This document shows positions 1,684 to 52,918 of a stretch of 64,000 nucleotides of DNA, one piece after another. Numbering within the stretch: position 1 is the stretch's first letter; every line of letters starts with the position of its first letter. Source of the stretch: Heliocidaris erythrogramma (taxonomy: Eukaryota; Echinodermata; Echinoidea; Camarodonta; Echinometridae); assembly GCA_025617745.1 (NCBI GenBank), contig CM046863.1, positions 2,108,001 to 2,172,000 of the forward strand. The letters are read 5' to 3'. A program made the translations under genes and the position numbers. The notes beneath the pieces are model-generated. The model saw only the letters and a list, made by a program, of their open reading frames with translations. It ran no database searches and was not told where the DNA came from.

Positions 1684-4440
1684 TGGGGTATATAATCCCA
1701 GGTAACAGGCCCATGTGGGGCCCATATGGGCATCATCCGGGCCATCTGGGCCATCTGGGCAAAAGGGAACCCATATAAATCCCATATGTATCCCTTGTGG
1801 AACCCATATGGGTTAACCCATTTTGAGATCTACTTGGGCCAGCCCATATGGGAACCATATGGGAAAAGACTGGGAAAACCCATATGGGAATGACATGTAA
1901 ATGCCCATATGGGTATCATATGGGAATAAGCTGGGCAAACCCATCTGGGAAACATCTGTAAATGCCCATATGGGTACCATATGGGAATAAGCTGGGCAAA
2001 CCCATCTGTGAAACATATTCAAATGAGCATATGGGTATCATATGGGAATAAGCTGGGAAAAACCATCTGGGAAACATATGTAAATGCCCATTTGCATATC
2101 ATGTGGGAATAAGCTGGGCAAACCAATATGGGAAAACATTTGTAAATGCCCATATGGGTATCATATGGGAATAAGCTGGGCAAACCGATATGGGAATGAC
2201 ATGTAAATGCACATATGGGTACTACGTGGAAAGAAACTGGGAAAACCGATATGGGAATGACATGTAAATGCCCTTATGGGTATTACATGGGAATAAACTG
2301 GGCAAACCAATATGGGAAAGACATGCAAATGTCCACATGGGAATCATACGGGAATATGCTGGGCAAACTCAAATGGGAAAGACATGTAAATGCCCAAATG
2401 GGTATCATATGGGAATAGGCTGGGCAAACCCACCCGGGAAACATATATATTTGCCCAAATGGGTATCATATGGGAATAAAATGGGCAAACCGATATGGGA
2501 ATGACATGTAAATGCACATATGGGTATTACATGGAAATAAACTGCGCAAACCGATATGGGAATGACATGTAAATGCCCATATCGGTATTACATGGGAATA
2601 AACTGGGCACACCAATATGGGAAAGACATATGAAAGCCCACATAGATATCACATGGGAATAAGCTTGGCAACCCCATCTAGGGAAACAACTGTAAATACC
2701 CATATGGGTATCATATGGGAATATGCTGGGCAACCGATATGGGAATGACATGTAAATGCCCATATGGATATAACATGGGAATAAACTGGGCAAACCGATA
2801 TGGGAATGACATGTAAATGCCCATATGGGTATTACATGGGAATAAACTGGGCAAACCCAAATGGGAAAGACATGTAAATGCCCATATGGGTACTTTATGG
2901 GAGTAAGCTAGGCAAACCCGTCTGGGATATATATGTCAATACCCATATGGGTAATAAATGGGAGTAAACTGGCCAAACCCATATGGGAAAGACATATGAA
3001 TGCCCACATGGATATCACATGGGAATAGGCTGGGCAACCCCATTTAGGGAAACAACTGTAAATACCCACATGGGTATCATATGGGAATAAGCTGGGCAAA
3101 CCCACCTGGAAAACATATATATTTGCCCATATGGGTATCATATGGGAATAAAATGGGCAAGCCTATATGGGAATTACATGTAAATGCCCGTATGGGTATC
3201 ATATGGGAATATGCTGGGCAAACCCAAATGGGAAAGACATGTAAATGCCTAAATGGGTATCATATCGGAGTAAGCTGGGCAAACCCATCTGGGAAACATA
3301 TAATTTTGCCAAAAGGGGTATTATATGGGAATAAGCTGGGCAAACCCACCTGGGAAACATATATATTTGCCCAAATGGGTATCATATGGGAATAAAATGG
3401 GCAAACCGATATGGGAATGACATGTAAATGCACATATGGGTATTACATGGGAATAAACTGGGCAAACCAATATGGGAAAGACATGCAAAAATTCCACATG
3501 GGAATCATACGGTAATGTGATGGGCAAACTCAAATGGGAAAGACATGTGAATGCCCAAATGGGTATCATATGGGAATAGGCTGGGCAAACCCACCTGGGA
3601 AACATATAATTTTGCCAAAATGGGTATTATATGGGAATAAGCTGGGCAAACCCATCTGGGAAACAGTTATATTTGCCCACATGGGTATCATATGGGAATA
3701 AGCTGGGCAAACCCACCTGGGAAACATATATATTTGCCCAAATGGGTATCATATGGGAATAAAATGGGCAAACCGATATGGGAATGACATGTAAATGCCC
3801 ATATGGATATTACATGGGAATAAACTGGGCAAACAGATATGGGAAAGACATGCAAATGTCCACATGGATATCACATGGGAATATGCTGGGCAAACCCATC
3901 TGGGAAACATATCTAGATGCCCATATGGGTATAACGTGGGAATTAGCTGGGCAAACGCAAATGGGATATATATGTCAATACCCATATGGGTAATAAATGG
4001 AAGTAAGCTGGCCAAACCCATATGGGAAAAACATATGAATGCTCACATGGATATCACATGGGGATATGCTGGGCAAACCCATCTGGGAAACATATCTAGA
4101 TGCCCATATGGGTATCATGTGGGAATAAGCAGGGCAAACCCCTGGGGAAAGACATATGAATGCCCATTAGGATATCACATAGGGAATAAGCTGGGCAACC
4201 CCATCTGGGGAAACAAAAGTCAATGCCCATATGGGTTTCATATGGGAGTAAGCTGGGCAAGTCCATATGAGTATGATATTCCAAAGTCCAAATGGGTGTC
4301 ATTTTGAAATGACCTGGGCAAACCCATATGTTAAAATATGTAAACCCCAATGTGGGTATCATTATTGGAATGATCTTGGCGAACCCATGTGGGTAAGATG
4401 TGTATATCATAAACTGGGTAAACCCATATTCTTGAGGGGT
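1684..4440. repeat. Satellite array, ~61-bp unit rich in CCCATATGGG
   Basis: About 45 diverged units are present. A typical unit reads as the consecutive blocks 'aatgcccatatgggtatc', 'atatgggaataagctggg', 'caaacccatctgggaaac' and 'atatgta'. The perfect palindrome CCCATATGGG or a one-base variant occurs once or twice per unit. Long open frames on both strands, rich in Met-Gly-Ile/Trp and Phe-Pro-Tyr, are products of the repeat and not genes. Units vary by insertions of a few bases. Confidence 0.95.
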
Positions 4441-8204: not shown

Positions 8205-9450
8205 TCGGGCCCATGAGGGGGCCCATGGGGGAACACAATATATGGGATCAATCATACTGTTCCCATATATTACCCAGGTGGACCCCAGATTAAACCCATA
8301 TGGGCCATCGGGTATGGCCCATATGGGTCCCCAATGGGCCTTGCGTGCAAAATACTATGGGGCCCCGTATGGGCATTCCAGGGTAGGACCCATATGGGAT
8401 AGCCTAGTATTTGCCAACATATTGCCCACATTTATACCCAGATTGGCCCCAGGCTGAACCCATATTAGCCATGTGGACGGCCTTTATTGGCCCCATATGG
8501 GCCTTGGGTGCAGAATCTTATGGGTCCCGTATGGGCATTCCCATGTGGGACCCATATGGGAACCCACAGATAATACCCATATGGGATAGCCCATATTTTG
8601 CCCACTTATTTCCCACATTTATACCCAGATGGGCCCCAGGCCGAACCCATATTGGCGATCTGGGATGGCCCATATGGGACCCACATGGGTCTTGGGTGCA
8701 AAATCTTATGAGGCCCATATGGGCATTCCCGTGTGCGACCCATAAGGGATAGCCCATATTTTGCCCACTTATTTCCCACATTTATACCCAGATGGGCCCC
8801 AGGCCGAACCCATATTGGCGATCTGGGATGGCCCATATGGGACCCACATGGGTCTTGGGTGCAAAATCTTATGAGGCCCATATGGGCATTCCCGTGTGCG
8901 ACCCATAAGGGATAGCCCATATTTTACCCACATATTACCCACATTTATACCCAGATGGGCCCCAGGCCGAACCCATATTGGCGATCTGGGATGGCCCATA
9001 TGGGACCCACATGGGTCTTGGGTGCAAAATCTTATGGGGCCCATATCGGCATTCCCGTGTGCCACCCATAAGGGATAGCCCATATTTTACCCACATATTG
9101 CCCACATTTATACCCAGATGGGCCCCAGGCCGAACCCATATTGGCGATCTGGGATGGCCCATATGGGACCCACATGGGTCTTGGGTGCAAAACCTTATGG
9201 GGCCCATATCGGCATTCCCGTGTGCCACCCATAAGGGATAGCCCATATTTTACCCACATATTGCCCACATTTATACCCAGATGGGCCCCAGGCCGAACTC
9301 ATATTGGCGATCTGGGATGGTCCATATGGGACCCACATGGGTCTTGGGTGCAAAATCTTATGGGGCCCATATGGGCATTCCCATGTGGGACCCAGATGCA
9401 AACCCATATGGGGCCTACATGATCCCCATATGGGCTTGCTACCTGGGATG
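8205..9450. repeat. Satellite array, 163-bp unit, also CCCATATGGG-rich
   Basis: Four to five near-identical 163-bp units lie at about 8600-9400, and diverged copies precede them from 8205. Unit blocks include 'tttatacccagatgggcccc', 'gaacccatattggcgatctg', 'ggcccatatgggacccacat' and 'tcttgggtgcaaaatctta'. The same open frames reappear every 163 bases on both strands, which is expected for a satellite with a unit length not divisible by 3. It shares the CCCATATGGG decamer with the 1.7-4.4 kb array but has a different unit. Confidence 0.95.
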
Positions 9451-10284: not shown

Positions 10285-11180
10285 CTACCATGGATGACTG
10301 AGCACCAGGGTTTTTAAAAATAGCCAAACAATCAAAATCTCCTTGCAGACGCTGATGCAACGAATGTTGCTACTTTAGTCTAAAATATTTTGTAAAAAGT
10401 TAAATTCTCCTTTGTGCTTCAATGCTTCATTGTTTAAAGTGATGTAAGCTTCTTGTTCCAAGTGTGGGCTGACGCTGATGCAACGAATGTTGCTACTTTA
10501 GTCTAAAATATGTTGTAAAAAGTTAAATTCTCCTTTGTGCTTCAATGCTTCATTGTTTAAAGTGATGTAAGCTTCCATATGACCTTGTTGTCATGGATGA
10601 CTGAGCACCAGGTTTTTTTTAAAAAGAGTCAAACAATCACAATCTTCTTGTTCCAAGTGTGGGCTGACGCTGATGCAACGAATGTTGCTATTTTAGTCTA
10701 AAATAGTTTGTAAAAAGTTAAATTCTCCTTTGTGCTTCAATGCTTCGTTGTTTAAAGTGACGTAAGCTTCCATATGACCTTGTTGTCATTGATGACTGAG
10801 CACCAGGGTTTTTTTAAAAAGAGTCAAATAATCACAATCTTCTTGTTCCAAGTGTGGACTGACACTAATGCAACGAATGTTGCTATTTTAGTCTAAAATA
10901 TTTTGTAAAAAGTTAAATTCTCCTTTGTGCTTCAATGCTTCATTGTTTAAAGTGATGTAAGCTTCCATATGACCTTGTTGTCATTGATGACTGAGCACCA
11001 GTGTTTTTTAAAAAGAGTCAAACAATCACAATCTTCTTGTTCCAAGTGTGGGCTGACGCTGATGCAACGAATGTTGCTATTTTAGTCTAAAATATTTTGT
11101 AAAAAGTTAAATTCTCCTTTGTGCTTCAATGCTTCATTGTTTAAAGTAATCTAAGCTTCCATATGACCTTGTTTCAATCC
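10285..11180. repeat. Tandem repeat, ~195-bp unit, about 5 copies
   Basis: The block 'gacgctgatgcaacgaatg' or a close variant starts at 10348, 10471, 10666, 10861 and 11055. That is a spacing of about 195, with a shortened first unit at 123. Other shared blocks are 'ctcctttgtgcttcaatgc', 'gtaagcttccatatgacc' and 'atgactgagcaccag'. Units differ by a few percent, so the array is young. Confidence 0.93.
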
Positions 11181-14335: not shown

Positions 14336-15525
14336 CACAACCGCCCCCTAAAATGACATCCTGGCTGTGCGGTTGGATCCTTCACGTCTGGCCCCCCACC
14401 ATTGGGTGTCGATCGCGGGAGGGGGGGGGGGGCGGTAGGGGTATATATCCCCCCAAAATATGAGGTGGGGTAATGGCCTGTTAATGCACTAAAAATCTAG
14501 TTTTTGAAGGTTTGAAATGCGAAAATTTTGGAAAGCTCGGTCGCTTTGCTCCCTCGCATAATTATTATCTTTCAGGATCTCGTAATTTCGCGCCCCCAGT
14601 AGGCCTATATTGTTCTTAAATAGCTTAAAGGGTTCAAAATTTGAAAAAAATAAAGATGTAATTGCTTTGCTCGATATATCATGTATGTGTCATATGACTT
14701 CTGCTAAATATTGCGCCCCCGATGTAAGATAAATAAAGTGTATAAAACAGCATTTGCAAAGGTTCAACTTTTGAAAGAAATCTCAACTTCAGGTAGCCTT
14801 GCTGAATTCCTCGACTCTTTCTCAAGCCTTTCAGGGTTTTCGTTAGTTTTGCTCCCGATTGTAGAAGTGAGTGAATAGAAAACCGCTTATCAATGCATAA
14901 AATTCGAGCTTCTCTACCGCTCAATTGCAAAATTTCCTGGGTAAAATGTACAAGAAATTGCGTTTTTTTAGGGTTAAAAATAGAAAAATTTGCCGCTCGG
15001 TGGCTTTGCTCCCTCGCTGACGTAGATAGGTTTGGGCACTCGGGGCGGGGGGGGGGGTGTGCATGTGAGCGTGTGTGTGTGTGTGTGTGTGTGAGGGTGT
15101 ATGTGTGTGTGTGTGAGGGTGTGTGTGTGTGAGGGTGAGTGTGTGTGTGTGTTTTCTTGTCAGGTCACGGGGGGGGGGGGGGGGTTATTGTGTTTGTGAA
15201 TCACCACCACAGGCACGGTACATGGCCTCGTCGTAACTTGGTACTCTGAGGATTGAGCTATCAGTATAAGGGAGTATACCCAAAAAAATATTTACCACTA
15301 CAACACTGGGTATCACCCATTTAATAGCGAACACAAATCTTCTGGATCTAGATTGGAATCAAGTAAACAGAAATTCTGGTAGAAAGACAACACCACTTTT
15401 TGTATTAGCTACCAAATTTTGGTAACAGCTATTATGATAGTGGTCACATTCACAACCAACGAGCAGATTCTAATCGCTGACTGTGTTTGTTAATCTAATT
15501 GCTATATATTTTATATTGGTTAGTT
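14336..15525. repeat. Gene-free stretch with (GT)n microsatellite at ~15060-15155
   Basis: The (GT)n tract is interrupted by 'gagggt' and lies between two G runs at about 15047-15056 and 15170-15184. Short degenerate blocks such as 'gctttgctccctcgc' at about 14547 and 15004 hint at another diverged repeat. No coding signal. Confidence 0.7.
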
Positions 15526-15529
15526 ACAT

Positions 15530-16440
15530 TTCCTTCTTTAGTTGAAAGATGTCATCTTCATTAATTCTGTTTCCATGGCAACAGATTTTTTTTAATAAAT
15601 CAAATTCCAAACTATATTCCAAACTAAATTTGTGAATATAATCAAACAGGCGGTAACAATAATTAGATGTTTACCATTATTTCATGTTGAAAACAAATAT
15701 AGTTCTGTATTTCATTAGAAATGCAATAAATTTATTTGTTACCATGGTAACGGCCTACACATTTAGTGGTCTCCTCCATCATCCCTTTACTTAAACAAAT
15801 TTTGATAAGTGAGTGTCGTGTAAAAGAGAAGATAATCACGTACAATACAAATATATTAATATTTACTTTTTTCGGTAGCATCGTTGTTTTTTTTTTTTTT
15901 TGCTCAAATATGTTTTTTTTTTGTCTTACTGTTTCCATAGCAACAGCCATTTTCAAACATGATGGACACCTTTTGTTTGAGTTTTTATCAAGTGAGAAAC
16001 TTGTGATACATTACTTTAAAATGTTATAATGTGTTTTGTCCTTCCTTAATCACGAATACATGACATTTTCTTAAATTCTACTGTTTGATCCGTTGCCATG
16101 GTAATAGTCCTTGTGGCCACGCCCACCTCTTATTTTAGGGCAAAGAAGCATATTCTGATAGTTAATGGTCCCATCTAACAGGGAAAAAAATCATTTTAAG
16201 ATTATTTCTAAGGGGGTGGAGACATTTCAGTTTTTGGCCCATAGACAATACTAATAAACATGGAATAATTGCCTTATACACTCTATAGATGTACCTTCAA
16301 ATAGTGTTTTTCAGTCAAAATGCGCATCCAGTAAAAACACATCGTTCTGTTTGGGATATCATAAAATGAGTTATACATTACCTTATCGGATAATTTCTTT
16401 TTTGTGTGTGACATGACAATATACATGATAGTAGGGCAGA
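15530..16440 (+). repeat. Dispersed repeat with spaced X-box-like palindromes
   Basis: This segment is a diverged inverted counterpart of 54320-55140. Shared blocks include 'aatcaaacaggcgg', 'ctttacttaaacaaatt' and 'tttggcccatagac'. It contains four matches to the RFX X-box pattern at 15569-15582, 15738-15751 (perfect GTTACCATGGTAAC), 15931-15944 and 16092-16105, spaced 169, 193 and 161 bp. It runs directly into the 158-bp array at 16480. Confidence 0.8.
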
Positions 16441-16479
16441 TATGTAACAAAAAATGGTCGAGTTGCTCGGATCCGGCAG

Positions 16480-17415
16480 AAAGTATAAAATTTGGTATAC
16501 TGGGGTATTTTGGGGCGCTGATTTCAAAAATTGCCGGCCCCCAGCGATCAGACCACCGGATCGGCCGCCATCTTGAATTTCAAAATGGCCGCCATGAAAA
16601 ATCATAAAAAATCGTTTTCTCGAGTTTTACATGACCTGTGGCACAGAAATTTGGCATATAGGGGTTTCTTTGGGTGCTGATTTCAAAACTGCCGGCCCCC
16701 AGCGATCTGACCCCCGGATCGGCCGCCATTTTGAATTTCAAAATGGCCGCCATGAAAAATCATAAAAAATCGTTTTCTTGAGTTTTACATGACCTGTGGC
16801 ACAGAAATTTGGCATATAGGGGTTTCTTTGGGTGCTGATTTCAAAACTGCCGACCCCCAGCGATCTGACCCCCGGGTCGGCCGCCATCTTGAATTTCAAA
16901 ATGGCCGCCATGAAAAATCATGAAAAATTGTTTTCGCGAGTTTTACATGACCTGTGGCACAGGAATTTTGCATTTAGGGGTATTTTGGGGTGCTGATTTA
17001 AAAAATTGCCGGCCCCCAGCGATCTGACCACCGGGTTGGCCGCCACCTTGATTTTCAAAATGGCCGCCATGAAAAATCATGAAAAATCTTTTTCTCGAGT
17101 TCTACATGACCTGTAGCACTGGAATTTTGTCTATGGGGGTATTTTGAGGCACTGATTTCAAAAATTGCCGGTCCCAAGCGATTTGACGACTGGTTCGGCC
17201 GCCATCTTGAATTTCAAAATGGCCGCCATGCTAATTCATGAAAAATCATTGTCTTGAGTTTTACATAACCTATGGCACTGGAATTTGGCACACAAGAGTA
17301 TTTTTGGGCGCGATTTCAAAAATTGCCAGCCCCAGTGATCTGAACACTGGGTCGGCCGCCATAAAAATCATTAAAAATTGTTTTCTCGACTTTTACATGA
17401 CCTGTGGCACTAGCT
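16480..17415 (+). repeat. Left array: ~158-bp tandem repeat with YY1-like motifs, about 6 units
   Basis: The block GGCCGCCA(T/C) recurs at 16563, 16721, 16879, 17038, 17197 and 17354, a spacing of 157-159. Each unit contains 'gccggcccccagcgatctga', a GGCCGCCAT(C/T)TTGAATTTC block, 'aaaatggccgccatgaaaaa' and 'ttttacatgacctgtggcac'. CAAGATGGCGGCC, read on the minus strand, matches the YY1 consensus. The same repeat appears in opposite orientation at 27270-27900. Confidence 0.93.
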
Positions 17416-17823
17416 GTAACTAGGTAGAAATGGGTATTTTCACATTCTAAATTCAAATATGGACTGATAGAAAATATCTAAAAATCATCATAGCCGCCAT
17501 TCGATTGAACATACGGAAAATCATACCCATCACTTTAAATTATAATATGACTGCCACGGAAATTCGATCTGTTTTAAATGACAAGTGGTTATGAAAATTT
17601 GGTACCAAAAGGTATTTTCATGGTAAATGTGTAAGTGTGTACATGTCAAACATTTGACGAACAATATCAACACAATTTTTAATTAAAATATGGCCGACAC
17701 GAGTAATATCAAGGAAACCCCTATTTATATGGAATATGAAATTTTGATATGGCTGCTAAACTGGAATGTTGAATAGCCCAAGGCTGAGCGTAACCCTTGA
17801 ATTTTCATTTAAAACTTAAAGAC
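17416..17823. other. No gene seen; decayed extension of the 158-bp repeat
   Basis: Weak echoes of the array persist ('tggccgacacgagtaa', 'aaattttgatatggctgc'). No coding signal. Confidence 0.4.
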
Positions 17824-17826
17824 AAT

Positions 17827-18150
17827 GGGCAGTATTCCACTAATTTAAGCTGGGACTAAGTCCAGACTAAGCTGGAATTTTAGTTCATGCTTCTATGGAA
17901 TGCCATGTTACAACTTCTACATCAATATTTATGACAGAATTATGTTACCAAAGGACCTCCTGAAAATTAAGTTCATACTTGTGCATGGTAACACGTTAAC
18001 GTCACTGCAACATTAACTTGGTTTGGGCATTTCGTCGCTGAATTAATATGATTTATACGCAATTTGGATGGGGCAACAAATGGCACTCCATAAAAGTGTG
18101 GACTAAGTTAAGCCAGGCTTAACTTAGTCTGCGCTATCGGAATACCACCC
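17827..18150. mobile_element. Short TIR element (MITE-like), 324 bp
   Basis: The left end 'gggcagtattccactaattt' and right end 'atcggaataccaccc' form an imperfect terminal inverted repeat. Inner paired blocks 'ctgggactaagtcc' and 'ggactaagttaagccagg' add secondary structure. The flanking bases AAT occur on both sides (17824-17826 and 18151-18153) and may be a 3-bp duplication. No coding capacity. Confidence 0.6.
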
Positions 18151-18459
18151 AATGATATTGTTGAACTGATTGAAATGTAAGATGAACCATAAGAAGACAG
18201 CCATTTTGAATTCAAGTTTGGCCACCATTACCATTTGGCCACCAACATTTTTTAGCACTGAACAATATTATAAACCCATTTTCTTGACTCTAAATGACAA
18301 AAGCCTCTAGCATCTTAAAAAGCACAAAAATATTATAGTTCAAGTGTTCACAGGCTTAAACCTGGAAAAGAATATCTGAAAAAAGTCCCTTACTAGTTTT
18401 ACCGTCATTCAGATTTAGCGATAAAAATGGTCCCAAAGTTCTCATCCAATGTACCTCTC

Positions 18460-21400
18460 CTACTCCTCATCTCGGAAGCATTGCCCAAAGCAGAAACATA
18501 GTCCTGTGCATGGCAGATTAGCTGCAAAACATTTGCAATTTCCAGTGCACCGCTTTTTACACTTGCACTTGATCAGTTCTCGGCACCCTTTTGACGCCTC
18601 TGGCAGTAGTGTCCAAAATGGATGCCATCCATCATCACCATCCTTCGTCCATCCCCAATCTTCAGGCGAAGGCAGCTCTGGGTTTGCACTTTGTGATTGT
18701 CCCCAGATGTGACCTGCTTGAAAGATTGCCCTCTTCACATGTTGACGTAGTGCTTCCTTTGTTGGTGGAATGTTCTCCAATTGCCGATTCCCTTGAGCAA
18801 AAAGCTGCTTACGTGCTTCGTTCACTTTCTTCAGAGAGGAAGTTCTACTGTACAGGACAACGAAAAACCTTTCAATGATGTCCATGTCATCATTTGTTAC
18901 TTCAACTGGTGCATTCGAGAGACGATTGAAGACCTCTCCCAAGTTTGGCATGGAAATCCATATGTCCCATACAGTCTTCTTGCCTATCCCTGCTAAGGCA
19001 GAAACGGTATCACACCCAGAAACAGCATGCAGGAACAGAAGTCCCCATGAGCGTTCGGGGCCTAGTTTTGTTGAAATGGTGTGAGCACCGATGTACCTAA
19101 GATTCTTTCCATGCCCAAAGGCCGACCACATCGCGATGCCATCCATTTTACTTGCCACTGCGATTGCCAGCACAACCACATCCGTGTCCGTTGCATGGAT
19201 TATGATACTTTGGTACCCTTGCTGATATGCCTGCCAAGCATGAAGCACCATACGTGTATCTGCTTCTTCATGTGTACATGGTTGAATGTTCTGCCACACA
19301 TCTGAATGAGGGTTTGATTTTACCTCTTCTCCCTGGGTTGTAAGAAGTGTTTTCCCATCTGGAACATTCATCGTCTGAAGAGAAGCTGCAAGGAAACTGA
19401 ACAATGTCTTCTTATTAGAATTTACACGAAGAAAACTGCTCCAGTTATGTGGTACCGACGTCTGTTCAGTTACATGGAGTGGTATGCCACTTCCACGACC
19501 AAGCCTGGTGCCTCCTTTTAGACTGTCCGATCTGTAGGTATCCCACACAACGTCAACACGTACTACTGTCTCCTCATTCAACTTTCGTGCAATGTATGGA
19601 AGAAACTGTTTCTGTGCATAATCACCAAATGTCCTGATCACACTACTGCATTTCTTAGGATCCAGCTGATGCACTAAGGCAGCCCCATCAAAAATGCAGA
19701 CTTCTGCAACGGGTGTTTCATCAGGACGTTCAGGATATGGGACAAGGGCTTCCAAACAGGGCACAAGATCGGCTTTGCTGGTTGGTGGGCGCATTGTATT
19801 AATATCTTCAGCCAATGCCGGAGGCCAACCGTGACATTCGTGTTCGAAGAATGCATCAAGATCACCATCTCTTGCCTGACAAGAAATGTACATTCGAGAG
19901 AACAGTTCAACATTGCTTTTCATATTAGTCATCTTCATCAGAGACTTTGCAGGTGTTTTCTTGGGCTTGGATTTGAACAGTCCCAGATTGTTCTTGGAAA
20001 TGTTGTCATAGAAACTGACAGAAGAATCATTCAGTCTCTTCTCTACAAATGCATTGAATTGTTTGTTGCCAGTTTCCTCCACAGATCGTAGTTGAGCTAT
20101 CACTTCATTAGGCATGATGACCTTGGTGTCAAGCACATACAGATCTTTAGTGTCTTCGGCAAATGGGTTCCCCAGTTTCTCGAACGAACTGATTGAATTG
20201 TTGAGATCTGATGCAAAGGATTTCTGCACACTAGGTAACTGATCATGGTGACGGACATCAGGTTCCTTCTGGCTCTGGAACTGGTCTTCAAACTCACTCA
20301 CGATTCTTGCTATTTCAGGACCAGCCACCATCCATCGGCGAAGAGCTGCTTCATTCTCAGTAATTCCTATGACTCCACCATCACCTTTAACTACGGCATT
20401 CTGCTGCTCATGTACCTGGTCATTTGCTATTGCAGAGAACCTGTGTGATGACTTCTGAGTGACAAATTTCCCATCGACAAATGCACGATGAGTATTCATG
20501 GAATTGTTTGGAAGCCCCTGGAGATCTGTGAGATGCACTGTCAACCATCTAGCATAATGGTAATGATCCATGGCAAACATCCATGGAATGATTGCCCTAA
20601 GGGTCTCCACGTACAGCATGTAGTTGGCTTCCCTCTGTGATCTTATGAATGCAAGGAGAAGGCATTCCAACTGCAGAACTTTATTCCAGTAACAAAACTG
20701 CGGGTAATCTGTGGCCATCTTGAGCTTCCAAGCATCGAATGATTTGATATCTTCACTTGCACAGGTTTTGAGGTAGTCTTCGTATGCTCTTTGCTGTAGA
20801 GAATAAAGTGCCGCAGCAGTGACCTGGTGTGCCCATTGGGCCCTGGAAGTTTGCGATCCTTTCTGAAGACTTTCTGCTCTCGCTTCTGTTGTTACACCTG
20901 CATTAGTCATCACACTCGTCCAACCACTCCCTTCTAAGAAGTCACCAATTACTTTCAACAATGCCATCTCTATGTGAAGTCCTCCCATCATCACCACAAA
21001 CTTGTCTTCGCCATATACACTTGGCCATGTCCACTGGATCTTCTTTGCTATAGCATAGAGAGGTTGATCAACTGTGAGAACAGGAACCTGTCCCGGATTC
21101 ACTAGATCTGTTGCCTGCTTGATTAAGTTCATCCCATGTTTCACCATTGCCAATGTATGAGCACTCTCTCGGAACATAGGTAACAGTCCTGTAATAGCAG
21201 GTGGTCGAGGAACTCCAACCTGTAGATTCGCCATGTAGGCTGCCCAGGATATGTTCTCTTCACTCTCTAGACTTCCGTTCTCGTGCAGTCTGTGTACAAA
21301 AGAAAGCCATTGACTTTCCTTGTCCTCTATTCTGGTCGACACATTTGGAGTTGACTGACCTTTAGATTTTCTTGGAATGGGCTGATTAGATGGAAATGCT

Positions 21401-23079
21401 GCAGGAGGGACATCACTGTAAGATGTAGGTAGGGCAGTTATGACTTTCCTACGCTTACTCTTCTCATTCGCAGTGAAGTTCTCATGATTTCTAATCGTAC
21501 CACTATTATCCTGTGAAACATGTTGTGTAAGTGAAATTGCTGTACCGTGAAATGAACTTCGAGAGGATACGGAGGATGGGTTGTGATCTATGTTATCCAG
21601 GTTCCCTGTTGTGAATAACCCACTTCGCAGTTTGGTTGGACACACAACACGGTCTTTTTCGTAGACTTCAATAACCCTGTTCGCCTCATCTGTGGATACT
21701 TGCAGGACACGATCATAGGAAACAGACACACCATATTGAAAAAGAACATCAACAAGATCCCGTTTCCTTGTTTTGCTATGAATGAGCAGACCCAGGTAAA
21801 GCGGTAGAGATGTTTCACGCTCCACATTGTGACGTACTGCTGCAGTTTCCAACCTGCCTCGTTTGATGGTGTTGAATGTGACAAGTTGGCTTAAGGATTG
21901 TACATGGACACTTACACCTTTCTTGATCGCAGTCTGTTTTTTAATGTTTGTACCAGCAAGGATCATTTGCATCAACGCTGTCAATGACGGTGCTGTGTTG
22001 TTAGATGATTCATCAAGAAGGGATCCATTAAATTGATACTGCCTCTGGAAAATATCTTTGCGCACAATCTGGGCAGCTCTCATAAGAATGACAGCATCAT
22101 CATCGGAGCTTTGTCCACAGGCATGCAGTAAAGCTTCGCCAGTGTCCTCTTTGAATGACAAAAGAACTTCATGATTGGTTGTATGTGCCTCAAGACTTGG
22201 AAGCTGTCTCAGAAGCTTGTCTTTAATGTGAGTCGAATTAATCCTCTTTGACGCATCGCCTCCCAGTTGCACCAAACGCTCTGTATAAAGCTTTACGAGA
22301 TCTGCTAACTTGAACACAGTATAGCTACCATCTGTGCACTTCATTTCTTCCAAATAGGACACCAGTTCCGCCAATGCTACTGATTCTAGTTGCATAGTTT
22401 CATTTGAACTGGCTTGTACTTCATTCTTCCTTACAAATGATCTGTATCGGGTGTGAAGGGCAGTCAGACACTTCTTGTGATATACAGCACCTGATGCTGT
22501 CATATCACCTACTGATAATTTAGCTAGAAGTTCTGTTTCTCTCAGTTCTGTCGCCATCATTCGAACTTTTGAATCTAAATTTAGTGTTGCTGCCCTGTGA
22601 ACTATTTGATCATTATTAATAACTGTATCGCAAAAGAAACATGTGCTAGCATCACTTTGTGTTACAGATGATGATGCAAAACTTGTTCTTAGTCTTTTCT
22701 TAACAGGCGAGAAAACTTCCTCATCAAGTTTATTTTCTGCAGCCCGTTTCCTTGCCCTTGATTCAGCTCGACCCACATTATAACTGCAACACTGCCTGTA
22801 ACATCTCTTGTGCCATTTGGCAGCATGAGTACCTAGTGTTTCTGCAATACCGCAACCTTCATCCAGTCGGGAAATGTTTATCCCACAAGGCAAAGCACCT
22901 ACATCATTCAGTGTTCTGAGGTTCTGGGCAAGAGTCTCGTAGACATCTCGACTTGACTGATTGCTGGCTCTACTGGCATCTCTGAGTAGTTCATTTTCTG
23001 AGTATTCCTGGCAAAGAGCGCATAGGCTCCAGTCTGTTGGCCTTGCCATTGTTGACGGTGCTTTCTCTGATGTTGACAT
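18460..23079 (-). CDS. Large unclassified protein: paired CxxC/HxxC modules, PIN/FEN-like block and CXC-like tail
   Basis: One uninterrupted exon of 1,539 codons plus a stop. ATG 23077-23079 is chosen because a strong 3' splice site (CTTTCTCTTTCAG) ends at 23085, five bases upstream, so the few in-frame codons beyond it are probably intron. Two similar modules open the protein: C20-x2-C23...H90-x2-C93 and C147-x2-C150...H201-x2-C204, likely zinc-binding. Conserved-looking blocks follow: DNIDHNPSS (~494-502), SFHGTAISL, VDQPLY (D671), GGLHIEM (~699-705) and HEQQN-VVKGDGG (~890-902). A PIN/FEN-type nuclease-like region spans ~1126-1400: FDGAAL, HEEADTR (~1270), TDTDVVVL (~1297-1304) and SGCDTVSALAGIGKKT, which resembles a FEN helix-turn-helix. 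A Cys-rich CXC-like tail occupies ~1499-1535. From memory, similar multicopy proteins occur in urchins, corals and amphioxus without assigned function. Its position between inverted repeat arrays suggests a mobile-element origin; function is not known. Confidence 0.85.
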   Translation of the reverse strand: MSTSEKAPSTMARPTDWSLCALCQEYSENELLRDASRASNQSSRDVYETLAQNLRTLNDVGALPCGINISRLDEGCGIAETLGTHAAKWHKRCYRQCCSYNVGRAESRARKRAAENKLDEEVFSPVKKRLRTSFASSSVTQSDASTCFFCDTVINNDQIVHRAATLNLDSKVRMMATELRETELLAKLSVGDMTASGAVYHKKCLTALHTRYRSFVRKNEVQASSNETMQLESVALAELVSYLEEMKCTDGSYTVFKLADLVKLYTERLVQLGGDASKRINSTHIKDKLLRQLPSLEAHTTNHEVLLSFKEDTGEALLHACGQSSDDDAVILMRAAQIVRKDIFQRQYQFNGSLLDESSNNTAPSLTALMQMILAGTNIKKQTAIKKGVSVHVQSLSQLVTFNTIKRGRLETAAVRHNVERETSLPLYLGLLIHSKTRKRDLVDVLFQYGVSVSYDRVLQVSTDEANRVIEVYEKDRVVCPTKLRSGLFTTGNLDNIDHNPSSVSSRSSFHGTAISLTQHVSQDNSGTIRNHENFTANEKSKRRKVITALPTSYSDVPPAAFPSNQPIPRKSKGQSTPNVSTRIEDKESQWLSFVHRLHENGSLESEENISWAAYMANLQVGVPRPPAITGLLPMFRESAHTLAMVKHGMNLIKQATDLVNPGQVPVLTVDQPLYAIAKKIQWTWPSVYGEDKFVVMMGGLHIEMALLKVIGDFLEGSGWTSVMTNAGVTTEARAESLQKGSQTSRAQWAHQVTAAALYSLQQRAYEDYLKTCASEDIKSFDAWKLKMATDYPQFCYWNKVLQLECLLLAFIRSQREANYMLYVETLRAIIPWMFAMDHYHYARWLTVHLTDLQGLPNNSMNTHRAFVDGKFVTQKSSHRFSAIANDQVHEQQNAVVKGDGGVIGITENEAALRRWMVAGPEIARIVSEFEDQFQSQKEPDVRHHDQLPSVQKSFASDLNNSISSFEKLGNPFAEDTKDLYVLDTKVIMPNEVIAQLRSVEETGNKQFNAFVEKRLNDSSVSFYDNISKNNLGLFKSKPKKTPAKSLMKMTNMKSNVELFSRMYISCQARDGDLDAFFEHECHGWPPALAEDINTMRPPTSKADLVPCLEALVPYPERPDETPVAEVCIFDGAALVHQLDPKKCSSVIRTFGDYAQKQFLPYIARKLNEETVVRVDVVWDTYRSDSLKGGTRLGRGSGIPLHVTEQTSVPHNWSSFLRVNSNKKTLFSFLAASLQTMNVPDGKTLLTTQGEEVKSNPHSDVWQNIQPCTHEEADTRMVLHAWQAYQQGYQSIIIHATDTDVVVLAIAVASKMDGIAMWSAFGHGKNLRYIGAHTISTKLGPERSWGLLFLHAVSGCDTVSALAGIGKKTVWDIWISMPNLGEVFNRLSNAPVEVTNDDMDIIERFFVVLYSRTSSLKKVNEARKQLFAQGNRQLENIPPTKEALRQHVKRAIFQAGHIWGQSQSANPELPSPEDWGWTKDGDDGWHPFWTLLPEASKGCRELIKCKCKKRCTGNCKCFAANLPCTGLCFCFGQCFRDEE

Positions 23080-23110
23080 TTGATCTGAAAGAGAAAGATA
23101 ATGCAATAAA
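23080..23110 (-). other. Predicted 3' splice site upstream of the large ORF
   Basis: On the minus strand a pyrimidine tract (TTATCTTTCTCTTTCAG) ends with AG at 23085-23086, followed by ATCAA and the ATG at 23077. This implies at least one upstream non-coding or short coding exon at higher coordinates, which was not identified. Confidence 0.55.
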
Positions 23111-23236
23111 TTATAATTGTTTCGATAATTGTTATTCATTATTATTGTTATCATTATTTTCTTTTATTATCATTATTATTGTTATGGACTTTAATAATAT
23201 CATCACAGATAGTTATTATTCTAACAGTCCAAACAG

Positions 23237-23468
23237 CAGCAGTGGATCCAGGCTTGACCAGTAAGGGGAGGGGGCGGAATGAGCTCTAATTGGGGCTCAC
23301 TTTTTCTTCACACCCTCCCCCCCCCCCCCCCCTTGACGTCAGGGAGGGTCCCCCCCCCCAAAAAAAAAAAGAAGAAAAAAAAATTGTACACACTTTTCTA
23401 TTGTCTTTTTAAAAAATGTCACATTATTTCCTGGGGGGGGGGGGGTCCGGGCCCCTGGATCTGCCACT
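23237..23468. mobile_element. hAT-like short element remnant
   Basis: The left end 'cagcagtggatccagg' and right end 'cctggatctgccacta' resemble the CAGTGGCGGATCC-type ends of the intact element at 50886-51235. The interior is poly-C, poly-A and poly-G. No clean duplication is visible, so it may be truncated or rearranged. Confidence 0.4.
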
Positions 23469-24640
23469 ACCAAACAGGGCCCCTCCCGCCACCCCGCAAA
23501 AGTAAATTAAAAAAAAAAGGAAAATGTCAACTGTTTTTGGAGCTGGTAACCTTATTTTTCTTGCTTGCTTGTCAAATTTTGAGGAGGTAAAAGTTGACCC
23601 TTTCTAATTCCATCATGGCCATGGTCGACTGTTTTTGTTGACAAAAAATTTTTTTTCACTTTTTGACCCCTCTCTCTCTCCAAAAAAAATGTACCGGCTT
23701 GCCAAAATAAATTATGGTCTTCAGGCTAGGAATTATAGTTCATACTTACATGCACTATGATTTCCAGGACAAAAGATATTGTTCTTCAAGATCTCCAAAA
23801 CTTGTCTCTCTGACTGTATATGCCCATGCTCTCACTAGAAAAGCTTGACGTGTATCCAGTGACAAAATGGCTCACTTCTCAAGGCTCTACATTGTAGACA
23901 AGTGCAAACAGAACAAATTTGATTGTTTACAGAAAAAAAATGAACTTAAATTAGTTCAAACTTTTCATAAAGTTGCTAATAATATTGGAGTTATTGAAAC
24001 ACTTTTCTATTGTCTTTTAAAAAATGTCACATTATTTCCTGTGGGGGGGGGGGGGGTCCGGGCCCCTGGATCTGCCACTACCAAACAGGGCCCCTCCCGC
24101 CACCCCGCAAAAGTAAATTAAAAAAAAAGAAAATGTCAACTGTTTTTGGAGCTGGTAACCTTATTTTTCTTGCTTGCTTGTCAAATTTTGAGGAGGTAAA
24201 AGTCGACCCTTTCTAATTCCATCATGGCCATGGTCGACCGTTTTTGTTGACAAAAACCAACTTTTTCACTTTTTGACCCCTCTCTCTCTCTCCAAAAAAA
24301 AATGTACCGGCTTGCCAAAATAAATTATGGTCTTCAGGCTAGGAATTATTAACAATTCAACATGTGTTGATGATAGTTCATACTTACATGCACTACGATT
24401 TCCAGGACAAAAGATATTGTTCTTCAAAATCTCCAAAACTTGTCTCTCTGACTGTATATGCCCATGCTCTCACTAGAAAAGCTTGATGTGTATCCAGTGA
24501 CAAAATGGCTCACTTCTCAAGGCTCTACATTGTAGACAAGTGCAAACAGAACAAATTTGATTGTTTACAGAAAAAAATGAACTTAAATTAGTTCAAACTT
24601 TTCATAAAGTTGCTAATAATATTGGAGTTATTGAAACACA
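23389..24640. repeat. Tandem segmental duplication, two ~610-bp copies
   Basis: Copy 1 (about 23389-23995) and copy 2 (about 24000-24640) share 'cttttctattgtctttt', 'gggcccctggatctgccact', 'ggagctggtaacc' and 'gtgtatccagtgacaaaatg' in order, with few differences. Copy 2 contains a short insertion near 24350. No gene lies inside. Confidence 0.9.
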
Positions 24641-27265
24641 GTGAAACACAGTTTTCCTTTTTATCATTTTTTTTCCACAAAGTGCTAATTACATTGGAGT
24701 CATTGAAGCAATTTGTAAAAATCATTATATACCATGCTCAATTTATAAAATATCAAATAAACTGAATCAACTGCATTTTTGTTGCCTTGTCCAGCATATT
24801 GAAATTCAAAAGGGCAAGCATTATGTTTGTGAAGATATTTCAAATTTATCCATTAGTGAATTTAATATGTTGAAATACCTCATTGCAACAAATTCAAGCA
24901 CAAAGCAGCATTTTGAACTCAAGAGATGGAATTAAAAAATTTCTCTGGGTGGCCATACTGAAATTACCAATTCTGTTCCAAATATTCATGACGTTACAAT
25001 AAATGGTATATTCTTCAATTAAATCATCAACAAGAGAATCAATAAACAATTATGTTCAATGCCTGTGTAAATTAAGAATTCATCGATGTATAAACATAGG
25101 TAGAAAGTATGGAACATTTGAATATTATATTCATTCCATATTTCATTTTAATTTCCACTCACCTGCAATAATGAAGCTTCATTTTGTTTCACTGGAGACC
25201 AGCATGCAAAGCCCTTAATTGTCTTCTCCATGGGCTACACCAAATCTAAAAAAGATAAAACAATAAGACAAATCAAAGGGATGCATAGACTGCTACTTGG
25301 ACAGTGAACATATATGAAATATTTTGTTCTTGTTTTTTTGTTTTTTGTTTTGTTTTTTTACTTGTGATTACTCATTCTGGTAAAACTTGGATATGATATG
25401 TGTACCCCGCAAAATAATCTATTGGCCTAATACAAAAATACAAAACTTGCCTGGGGCCATTCTAAAAAAAATGGACTTTCAATAAAAGCAAGGCAAGGAG
25501 AAGAAGAAGAGGAAGAAGAATAAGCAGAAGAAGAAGAATAAGCAGAAGAAGAAGTAGAAGAAGAAGAAGGAGAAGAAGAAAAAAGAAGAAAATAAAGGAT
25601 AAGAATAACAGAAGATGTTAGTTCACTTTTTTGAATGATATCAACGTATGACCCAAATTCTAAAACTGGGTGTATCAGAAAAAAAATAATTTAATGTCTT
25701 TTCCGGATAAAAACATAAAATCAGTGACAAGAAAAATCAGATCTCTTGAAATACATCCTGCTTATATTCATATGGAACTTTGATGGTCTTTCTAGGACCA
25801 CACATCACTGAACACCATTGTTTTTAGAACATACACAGCTGACACAATCGTGACAAAGAACAATAAAAAATCAACAAAATAAGAAAATTAAAAACCTCAC
25901 CACTTCTTCACGTCATACAATCTGTGTTTTTCTTTACATTTAAGAACATTCAATTCAGACACATAATTTTTTTTTTAAAGTAATGTTGACAAAGCAAATG
26001 CACAATTCCATTGTTCTAGGGTACACACTCAAAATTTGCCTATCGATGTGCAGTGGAAATGAACCTTCTGCTACTTTGCACTACTTTTTTTTGGAATAGT
26101 ATTCAGTAATGCTTGGTCATAATAACCTAATTAAGGTATTTTCGGAATGCTAATAGGTCATATTTTCAAGAATTAATAGTTTCATAATTATTTATTTGAT
26201 AATTTTCTTACTAACAATCATGAAAGTTTGGTTTCCTTTTTGAGACACATCGTAAAATCATACTCATAGCTTCAGATGTTTAAAAAAAGGAAAACACATG
26301 AGTGCTTTTGCACACTTACAAATCAGATTTCGATTTTAAAAAAATAATTAAAAAAAAAACCATGATAATCTTAGTGATCACAACACAAGTGTATTCTTAA
26401 GATTTTTTTTCCAATTTGGATCGGCCATTTCAAAAGTAAGATTAAAAATATTTGTGCTTTCATAAAGAAAATTTTAAGGATTCCTGCCTTTTTCCCCCAC
26501 AGATGTGCTTTTTTACCACCTTGTTATAAGTGTCCCTTCATTCACTTGGTCTGGTACCGTAGACTAATTATCTAAACTGTACAAAGCATGTAAAATTGTG
26601 ATAACTGTTTTGATATTATTCTGAATACTTCACCCATGCATTATTTTCATCAAGTAATTAGATAAATGGAACAATTTATAATGGAATTATAAAAGAACAA
26701 TGTTTTTGATTAGGAAAAAATAATGATAGACCTCCCCTCCCTTACAGTTACATATTATAACACCAAACTCAACATGTGGGACTAAATAGAAAATTCTATC
26801 AAAATAATTTCACAAAAATCATTTTATTTCATTGTTCTCTCAGCCAAACATCTTTGTTCACAGAGTCAATGTAATAAATTAAATAATTTTCTAAGTATAT
26901 GAAATATAAAGGTAACTTACCATCATAAAATGGTGGACTTGAAGAACTTTATTGTCATACTCTGCAGGGTGAGTTGCTTAGAAATATGAAGGCTCCTTAA
27001 CTTTTAGCCAATCACGCGCGAGTATTCAGAGGGGAATCCCCATTTATACTCTTTGCTAGTCTTTGTATTCAGACAGCTTATATTGGATTTTTTATTGGAT
27101 TTTGCCCCCAAAGGATCTTTATATTCACAAAGCTTCTCATTTAGATTTGCTGTCCTAGCTCATCCACATTTCTTCGATTAACAATCAAAATGGCAGTACA
27201 AAGGTTTTGCCACCTCTTGTGGTACCTATATCTGACTAAGGCCAAGGACTAGACCTTGGCCTATA
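24641..27265. other. No gene seen; AT-rich, polypurine tract at 25485-25600
   Basis: About 2.6 kb of AT-rich sequence between the duplication and the right array. The purine-only-like tract at 25485-25600 is made of GAAGAA and AAGCAG units and could form triplex DNA. If the 1,539-residue gene has 5' exons, they could lie here, but no exon is recognisable. Confidence 0.5.
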
Positions 27266-27269
27266 ATGA

Positions 27270-27900
27270 TGTTTAATTATTCATCATGGCGGCCGTATTG
27301 GAATTCAAGATTGCGGCCAACACAGTGGTCAAACCTATTGGAACTGGCATTTTTTGAATTCGTGATATCAAAATACCAGTGTGTACCGAATTTCAGTGCC
27401 ACAGGTCATTTAGAACTGAAGATAGGGATTATTAATGAATTGGCATGGCGGCCATTTTGCAATTCAAGATGGCGGCCGACCCGGTGGTCAGCTCGCTGGG
27501 GGCCGGCAATTTTTTCGAAATCATCACCCCCAAATACCCTTATTTGCCACATTTCCGTGCCACAGGTCTTGTAGAACTCGAGAAAATGATTTTTCATGAT
27601 TTTTCAATGGCGGCCATTTTGAAATTCAAGATGGTGGCCGACCCGGTGGTCAGCTCGCTGGGGGCCGGCAATTTTCGAAATCAGCACCCCAAAATACCTC
27701 TATATGCCAAATTTCTGTGCCACAGGTCTTGTAAAACTCGAGAAAACGGTTTTTAAAGATTTTCAATGGCGGCCATTTTGAAATTCAAGATGGCGGCCGA
27801 CCGGGTGGTCAGATCGCTGGGGGCCGGCAATTTTTGAAATCAGCGCCCCAAAATACCCCTGTATGCCAAATTTCATGCTTTCTGCCGGATTTGAGCATAA
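27270..27900 (-). repeat. Right array: ~160-bp tandem repeat inverted relative to 16480-17415
   Basis: Four units carry AAGATGGCGGCC or variants near 27313, 27471, 27633 and 27792, a spacing of 158-162. The outermost unit ends 'atgctttctgccgga', the reverse complement of the outer edge of the left array ('tccggcagaaagta'). The two arrays therefore face each other across 18.5-23.1 kb. Confidence 0.92.
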
Positions 27901-28222
27901 ATTTCACATATCTTACACACTATGATGTTTAATCAAGAAAAGGCGTTTAAAATGACAAATTTACGTTGGGTAAAAAACGTTGAAATATTGGTAGTTTTCA
28001 CAACCTATTATTTTGAGTAAATCACAGTTTTATGTTTCATTACGCCATACATGTGTGTATAATATCCTACTTTCAATTGTGTATTAATCAGGTTTATAAC
28101 TTGAAACTCAAAATAAATCTGATATCACTTGAAAAGTCTTAATCAGGTATTACATATTAGGTCAAAAAAATAAAAATCGTGATTTTTGACATTCTTTAAA
28201 ATTTTGAGCCCAAAATGGCATT
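27901..28222. repeat. Outer flank of the right array, shared with ~54330-54370
   Basis: 'gtttaatcaagaaaaggcg' and 'aaatttacgttgggtaaa' near 27928-27975 recur, in the opposite strand sense, at about 54333-54372. The rest of the segment is AT-rich with no gene. Confidence 0.65.
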
Positions 28223-28223
28223 T

Positions 28224-28860
28224 TTAGGCAAAAATGCGCGTGGCATCCGCCCGTACGTTATTCGTCAGTATTTTGCAAGACTTTAAGCATGAACGCCGAG
28301 CATTACCCAAAAATGCCGTCCAAAGTAAAAAAAATCTTCTTGGCTGGTCTACTATTACCCACGAAAAAACATTTTCTAAACCTTTTGTTAGCTTTCGCTC
28401 TACTTCTGCAACACTTCTTCCGTTAACTGTTAGAGTGGTGTCGTCGGCATACATATCAACAATACCTTCATCAATACATTTTGAGGAACTTGAAGTGGTC
28501 CCTAAAAAAAACCCCGTCTGTTCTCGGTTAGACAGATATGATACAAACCACTGAACACTCCTATCAGAACAGCCAATGGCTTTCAGTTTATGTAACAGAA
28601 TATCGTGATCAACAGTGTCAAATGCTTTCCTCAAATCAATGAAAGCAACACCTGTTAATTCATTGTTATCAAAATTCAATGACCATTGGTTAACTAATTT
28701 CATAAGAGCTGTTGCAGTAGAGTGAAGGGGACGAAAACCTGATTGGTTAGCACACAATATTTCATATTTGTCGAGAAAATCACATAGTTGGAAATGCACA
28801 GCTTTTTTCTAGAATCTTGCTTACTACGGATAATATCGATATTGGTCTGTAATTACTGGG
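28224..28860 (-). pseudogene. CR1/L2-type LINE ORF2, reverse-transcriptase fragment (broken)
   Basis: Read on the minus strand, an NYRPISILSVVSKILEK block at about 28800-28855 leads into QSGFRPLHSTATAL, then the RT motif-A block FIDLRKAFDTVDH, then YADDTTL. These are standard non-LTR RT motifs. The region between EQTGFF and the YADD box is too short, so the block with the usual PQGS motif has been deleted. After VFSW the frame runs into unrelated sequence. The fragment belongs with the endonuclease and ORF1 pieces up to 33720. It cannot encode an active enzyme. Confidence 0.88.
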
Positions 28861-29680
28861 AGGCACGTATGCGCACCGCTGGCATTAGCCGGGCGCCGCC
28901 ATTTTGTGTCCTAAAATGTCACTTTTCGCGCGTGGGTACGTTCTTCACGTCTTCTCATCTTATGCATATTCATTTTTTCCCTGTCCGGCTGTCGAATGAA
29001 AACTTGGGTAGTCAATCTTACCTCTAGATTCAGTAAATCAAGCTCGTTCCAAACATATATAATTTGCCACTATTTGATGTCATAAAAATACAGCAAAATT
29101 GGCTTCAAAATAACCTTCATTGTCATATAATCGATTCATAAAATCATGCTTTATTATTTGTTGCCATGGTGATTTTTCAACGGTTTTCCAGCTATCAACA
29201 TATATTTATTTTTATTGTTTATCATCCACTCTTCAAATTGTTCATATGATTTTACAAGTCTTATTCGATAGTTTTTTTTTATTAGCCCCCAAAGTCGAGG
29301 TAGTTTCACCAACTTTCCTCTTTATTTTGACCGTCATCCGGAAATTCGTCGGAAATTACGCAATGCGGATACAAATTGCAGTGTGTGAGGTGATATTTCA
29401 TATTTTGGGATATTGCTAACGATTTAATAATAACTTTACGTCGATTTGACTTCATTTCGGTGGATTTTGAAGAGTTTGATATCACCGCATAAGCAGCAAT
29501 CCCCCATTTCTATCGAGACATGTATTGGCCGTACGCCGCCTGCATTGGGGTAGCAAAAGTCCGATTTCCCGTAGCGAACGTTGCGTTTCATGCAGGATTC
29601 TGGGTCATGGACAATAAACATGCATCAACATTGGATATAAATTTATACTAAAATTCCATTCAAATGAGTTACATTTTCAA
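28861..29680. other. Unidentified sequence replacing part of the LINE
   Basis: About 820 bp separates the RT block from the LINE segment ending near 29680, where a continuous LINE would have the RT N-terminal part. The right part near 28865-28950 is CpG-rich. No protein family and no terminal repeats were recognised; it could be an insertion or the result of a deletion and rearrangement. Confidence 0.45.
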
Positions 29681-52310: not shown

Positions 52311-52918
52311 ATTCACACGTTATTCCCCCGATAGCAGAAAGTGTTAAAAAATGGCGTGATATTTACGTCGCGGTTTTCGTCTTTTTTACGTAATGTAATT
52401 ACGTCAATAAGACGACAACTTGCACCAACGCAAGACGTCAAGAGGCCGTCTTATTTTGACGTCATCTCTACGTCTTCATTCCTCTTCCCTGATAGCGGAA
52501 AGTGTTAAAAATGACGTGATATTTACGTCGCGGTTTTCGTCTTTTTTACGTCATGTAATTACGTCAATAAGACGACAACTTGCACCAACGCAAGACGTCA
52601 AGAGGACGTCTTATTTTGACGTCATCTCTACGTCTTCATTCCTCTTCCCTGATAGCGGAAAGTGTTAAAAATGACGTGATATTTACGTCGCGGTTTTCGT
52701 CTTTTTTACGTCATGTAATTACGTCAATAAGACGACAACTTGCACCAACGCAAGACGTCAATAGGACGTCTTATTTTGACGTCATCTCTACGTCTTATAC
52801 ACTGTAAAAACTAAAGTGCTCCTTTTAGGGGTATGTATAGTGACTGCACCTAAAATGCTGTTTATAACACTTGTAGTGTGCTAATTTACCAGCCAAAAAA
52901 AAAAAATTAAGAAATGTG

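Follow-up and report, generated by a model that had tools for sequence, protein, structure and literature searches.

A recently mobile transposon encoding a transposase-nuclease fusion in Heliocidaris erythrogramma, very probably of the AcademX lineage

A stretch of 64,000 nucleotides from the sea urchin Heliocidaris erythrogramma (GenBank assembly GCA_025617745.1, contig CM046863.1, positions 2,108,001 to 2,172,000; C11:2108001-2172000 in our notation and here called the window) carries an uninterrupted frame of 1,539 codons, which raises the question of what kind of gene this is. An earlier note, made from the letters alone, had taken its product for a DNA-acting enzyme of mobile-element origin, a view that is supported by the predicted folds and by the many copies with shared ends. 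The frame was confirmed and lies on the minus strand, which the note had left unsaid, within an element of 11,494 bp. Very probably this element is a cut-and-paste DNA transposon that is autonomous, belongs to the AcademX (nuclease) lineage of the Academ superfamily and was active very recently in its host. The filing under Academ rests on the combination of features as described for this group. The AcademX lineage of this superfamily was reportedly set out by Kapitonov and Jurka in 2010 and by Kojima in 2020.

The mechanical open reading frame (ORF) spans 18460..23154 on the minus strand and encodes 1,564 residues; residue numbers given here follow it and count 25 extra residues ahead of M26. 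The true start is probably M26, at position 23079, because this residue is invariant in all 30 aligned sequences (the window protein, P0001 in the search results, and 29 relatives picked among the full-length ones) and because P0120, a Lytechinus pictus relative without the nuclease half (81% over 865 columns), has its first residue opposite M26. The start at 23079 used in the earlier note is thus better than the mechanical one. The protein is laid out as follows, with conservation given for the 30 sequences:

18460..23079, minus strand: ORF from the probable start M26, transposase-nuclease fusion, 1,539 aa plus stop
22801..23022, minus strand: zinc module 1 (C45, C48, H115, C118); H115 and C118 invariant, C45 and C48 at least 90% conserved
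22468..22641, minus strand: zinc module 2 (C172, C175, H226, C229), invariant
22147..22377, minus strand: tentative winged-helix-like domain, residues 260-336
20284..21918, minus strand: predicted DDE transposase domain, residues 413-957, proposed triad D520, D696 and E916
18658..19779, minus strand: predicted XPG/FEN/Exo1-type nuclease domain, residues 1126-1499, with D1156, D1205, E1297, D1299, D1323, D1325 and D1382
18478..18585, minus strand: Cys-rich, CXC-like tail, residues 1524-1559, nine Cys at least 90% conserved

All motifs named in the earlier note were found in the translation: VDQPLY (695-700), GGLHIEM (724-730) and HEQQNAVVKGDGG (915-927), and further downstream FDGA (D1156), HEEADTR (1295-1301), TDTDVVVL (1322-1329) and SGCDTVSALAGIGKKT (1379-1394). 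Its two CxxC...HxxC modules, which it had placed at residues 20-93 and 147-204, are the zinc modules listed above. The window protein alone gave no match in Pfam and PDB sequence searches, and the single weak row of a PDB profile search, HflX (E 0.039), was disregarded. An RNase H-fold transposase, which the note had suggested looking for, was predicted for residues 413-957, with the P element as the top-scoring solved transposase and a helical insertion reaching from the strand preceding H727 to the E916 helix; D520, D696 and E916 are invariant in 30 of 30 aligned sequences. The block that had been read as FEN/XPG-type nuclease is likewise predicted to adopt an XPG/FEN-type fold (8-15% identity to Exo1, FEN1, XPG and XRN in the rows displayed). 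It shares with these enzymes the fold and the order of seven acidic residues, and differs from them in being fused to a transposase. As the earlier note had asked of the Asp and Glu residues, these acidic positions are conserved, being invariant in the 30 sequences and at least 95% conserved in 56. For the tail a CXC-like identity is plausible: a loose CXC spacing pattern of the Cys residues fits 70 of 110 relatives (fragments counted), and one relative, P0073 from Labeo rohita, is named 'Tesmin/TSO1-like CXC' in its source. Against this, the Pfam TCR model was touched by only 1 of the 30 members (E 0.083), and P0001 had no match to it.

The ends of the element were mapped from the points where homology between copies stops, and the resulting features are:

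16429..27922, minus strand (that of the ORF): the complete element of 11,494 bp
16426..16428: left-hand copy of the TGA target-site duplication
27923..27925: right-hand copy of the TGA target-site duplication

The element begins with TAGTAGGGCAGATATGT and ends with ACATATCTTACACACTA, and in two copies fetched further outward homology stops at the same two points. Both ends could be read in 18 of 21 copies (the others being C10e, C13c and C11b), where they start with TAGTAGGGCAGATATGT and close with ACACTA. Duplications flank 17 of these 18 copies, 3 bp long in 15 and 4 bp long in two (ATTA and TACA), and as a control 306 mismatched flank pairs were compared, 20 of which agreed over 3 or 4 bp. 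The copy without a duplication, C13a, has its first T changed to C; in C15b the first T is a G and the duplication is readable as TTA or TTAG, and C4 carries a 6-bp difference just within the left end. The left flank belongs to a 1.1-kb interspersed repeat (15309-16430) that is 80-99% identical to 40 other places listed, out of 1,938 candidates; 39 of these 40 end at window position 16428-16430, which is the junction, and one ends earlier. Four paralogous empty sites were fetched. In three (L073, L074 and L075) all 158 positions align to the window's flanks when these are joined through one TGA, with 0, 0 and 1 mismatches, respectively, and the fourth, L076, shows one mismatch as well as a 2-bp difference at the site. 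The element was thus inserted into the 1.1-kb repeat at TGA.

Copies were sought throughout the genome (1.06 Gb, 26 contigs). A protein search, in which 30 of 586 candidates were scored, returned 21 rows that span all 1,564 residues at approximately 100% identity, including the window copy; two of these contain a stop codon, and the copies are spread over many contigs. At 27 loci (L003-L029, the window's included) the fetched stretch is covered 100% by the window element, the longest pieces being 99.2-100% identical to it with gaps counted, and L030 and L031 are fragments of one broken copy. The window ORF differs from the ORFs of 19 of the 20 other full-length copies (L022 was excluded for its length) by 0-5 nucleotides in 4,692, that of L003 on contig C15 being identical. 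The 35 differences are each private to a single copy, which suggests a star-like burst, and counted by codon 5 are synonymous, 27 are nonsynonymous and 2 affect stop codons, with a ratio of possible nonsynonymous to synonymous changes of 3.3. This looks like the pattern of very recent copies drifting without selection, and the near-identity of the copies suggests that the element has been moving very recently. The strong conservation of the active-site residues across animals could be taken to favor a domesticated host gene of transposon origin, with a nuclease or DNA-binding role and spread by duplication. We consider this extremely improbable, as it is contradicted by the many contigs, the exact ends with target duplications, the empty sites and the neutral-looking differences. 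The single-copy, syntenic gene without terminal repeats that would have spoken against the earlier note is likewise excluded.

The nuclease of AcademX elements is of the XPG type. Passages of PMC10045372 give duplications of 3 or 4 bp for AcademX and of 9 or 10 bp for AcademH, and connect this difference with whether a nuclease or a helicase is encoded. The element described here shares with AcademX the predicted DDE transposase and the nuclease, the 3- or 4-bp duplications and terminal inverted repeats; that these repeats are built of ~158-bp units with a palindromic core may set it apart from other AcademX families. Its 11.5 kb is about twice the average of 5,565 bp given for curated consensuses of Academ in part of a study on bivalves, where the superfamily has expanded (PMC10294476). 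Portions of other sources list an Academ relic in the human genome (PMC9004415) and treat AcademH in fungi (PMC10799480). The Pfam family DUF6589 (PF20231) was matched by 6 of the 30 members at E <=0.1 (best 1.1e-8), in P0032 at residues 752-944, which is the region of the helical insertion and the E-helix. In a scan of six relatives three matched, two of them above the 27-bit cut-off; P0001 itself had no match in the Pfam scan, the gathering cut-off not being reached, and DUF6589 was not mentioned by name in the literature searched. DUF6589 presumably represents Academ transposases. From AcademH our element differs in having a nuclease instead of a helicase and duplications of 3-4 instead of 9-10 bp.

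A DNA transposon of another or new superfamily, which gained an XPG-type nuclease independently of Academ, is improbable in our view. The P element as top-scoring solved fold, and a comparison to Academ by description only, would favor it; the combination of transposase, nuclease and 3/4-bp duplications is the one stated for AcademX in the passages of PMC10045372. The Drosophila P element and the hAT transposase Hermes likewise have an RNase H fold in which an all-helical insertion separates beta5 from alpha4, according to part of PMC7776569, whereas the protein studied here differs in its fused nuclease, its duplication length and the absence of a detected THAP domain. No THAP match was found in a Pfam scan of the window protein at E up to 1. 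Elements of the P superfamily make 8-bp duplications and have an N-terminal THAP domain, which also argues against placing this element among them.

The window protein has many relatives: 110 were found among 7,987 candidates scored, many of them full-length, and those covering at least 94% of the query are 32-72% identical to it. Named hosts include Nematostella, Frankliniella, Labeo, Ceutorhynchus and Dissostichus, and in a profile search (39 of 7,992 scored) a protein from Bemisia and the Lytechinus protein were found in addition. The Lytechinus match by itself points to a sea urchin host, though not with certainty, as transposons can move from one host to another. A scan of IMG/VR confirmed no relative. 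Two hits in the GTDB collection were set aside: L001, an Academ-like ORF of 1,445 aa (26% identity) in a Planctomycetota metagenome-assembled genome, which we read as probably contaminating animal or protist DNA, and L002, a fragment in a Bathymodiolus (mussel) symbiont assembly, probably also eukaryotic contamination. Separately, four insect gene models of this family (P0107, P0069, P0080 and P0092) have been given domains or names that are foreign to it (animal haem peroxidase, ACC oxidase, KIF4 and BIRC6), probably through misannotation.

Both ends of the element consist of arrays:

16429..17410, plus strand: left terminal inverted repeat, the terminal ~60 bp followed by 6 units of ~158 bp, the innermost shorter
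27263..27922, minus strand: right terminal inverted repeat, 4 units of ~158 bp in opposite orientation, the innermost partial
16563..17227, plus strand: five 31-bp near-palindromic cores, at 16563, 16721, 16879, 17038 and 17197 (spacing 158-159)
27288..27798, minus strand: four 31-bp near-palindromic cores, at 27288, 27447, 27609 and 27768 (spacing 159-162)

The two arms are 83.6% identical over 633 columns, and elsewhere in the 64 kb the ~158-bp unit had no match at E 0.01 (best 0.016, at 24909-24965). The core is self-complementary at 26 of 31 positions, and its nine sites compare with none in 20 shuffles of the window that preserved single-base composition only, scanned on one strand. The element contains the box ATGGC[CG]GCC 24 times, the remaining 52.5 kb of the window not once. 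A second family in this genome (L032), whose protein is 44% identical, has arrays with a period of 160-162 flanking its ORF on both sides; its unit looks different yet contains the same core (six of its eight sites agree at 29 of 31 positions, the other two at 28), on the plus strand on one side and on the minus strand on the other. In a third family the 3' flank (L086) has eight boxes in a period-346 repeat with a different spacer. Several results weigh against a palindrome shared by all: the fetched 5' flank of the third family (L087) has no boxes, and the fetched stretches of a fourth (L088 and L089) have none either, L088 containing a period-173 array. The boxes are also absent from both L001 and L002. 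The palindrome is thus common to two families and partly present in a third, but it does not extend to all.

These arrays may form a conserved cis-code, in which two inverted ATGGCSGCC boxes every 158-162 bp, one nucleosome-like step, would be read by the fused transposase/XPG nuclease or by a captured YY1-type host factor so as to assemble the ends on chromatin, the nuclease processing branched DNA there. We offer this tentatively and think it rather unlikely; if true, end recognition would set this live Academ element apart from most cut-and-paste transposons, which have short terminal sites. For the terminal arrays only, and compatibly with the AcademX filing, the palindromes could instead be sites for a YY1-like host factor, for instance promoter elements, rather than substrates or binding sites of the element's protein. 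One palindrome arm in reverse complement reads CAAGATGGCGGCC, which resembles a YY1 motif, and AAgATGGCggcg is bound by YY1 according to part of PMC4669652. Mirrored arrays at both ends, with a 158-162-bp period and in two families, exceed the needs of one promoter, and we rate the host-factor alternative a serious possibility that falls somewhat short of even. Shared by two families with 44% identical proteins, the palindrome is a specific candidate binding site.

A third Academ-like family was seen at seven loci, including C21:10068867-10073015, C11:50004954-50007398 and C18:12372347-12374791 (genome G000). Over query residues 457-1279 they share 54-55% identity with L032; their open frames measure 823-1535 aa, and one has two stops within the match.

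Computation showed the ends of the element with their target duplications and an empty site, the near-identity of the copies, the conservation of the acidic residues and the predicted folds, and we infer the following steps of movement. The zinc modules, winged helix and CXC-like tail would bind the element ends, perhaps at the subterminal palindromes. The DDE domain (D520, D696 and E916) would cut the element out and join its 3' ends to target DNA with a stagger of 3 nt, sometimes 4 nt. The fused XPG/FEN-like domain may trim an intermediate that is branched or has a flap or hairpin, most likely on the strand not transferred by the DDE site. Given the number of intact ORFs, the mapped ends with their target duplications and the near-identity of the copies, the family is a strong candidate for a working element. 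We know of no experimentally studied Academ transposon, and none appeared among the titles that our literature searches listed, which were not aimed at that question. The family makes testable the role of a flap-type nuclease within a transposase, including whether the 3-4-bp stagger is set by it, a link between nuclease and duplication length having been suggested for AcademX versus AcademH in the passages of PMC10045372.

Inside the element, upstream of the ORF, lies one further feature, whose copy number seems to differ among element copies:

23390..24639: two head-to-tail copies of a ~610-640-bp segment

The earlier description of the region as otherwise free of genes was roughly right: the 64 kb hold six other ORFs of at least 150 aa, three with retroelement-type domain matches. 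At 41826-46405 (minus strand) lies a Ty3/gypsy-type retroelement whose pol ORF has the order integrase (residues 30-202), reverse transcriptase (522-680) and RNase H (770-873), with a gag-like ORF containing a zinc knuckle immediately upstream. This integrase-first, copia-like order is that of Gmr1 elements. A reverse-transcriptase fragment is found at 28224-28799 (minus strand), and a high-copy repeat occupies 28864-29400, starting near 28864 (40 of 1,750 candidates scored), with several copies arranged as inverted pairs ~1.4 kb apart. Large tandem arrays are present at 1842-4398 (period 61 bp), 8575-9394 (163 bp), 10449-11173 (195 bp) and 52326-52796 (160 bp).
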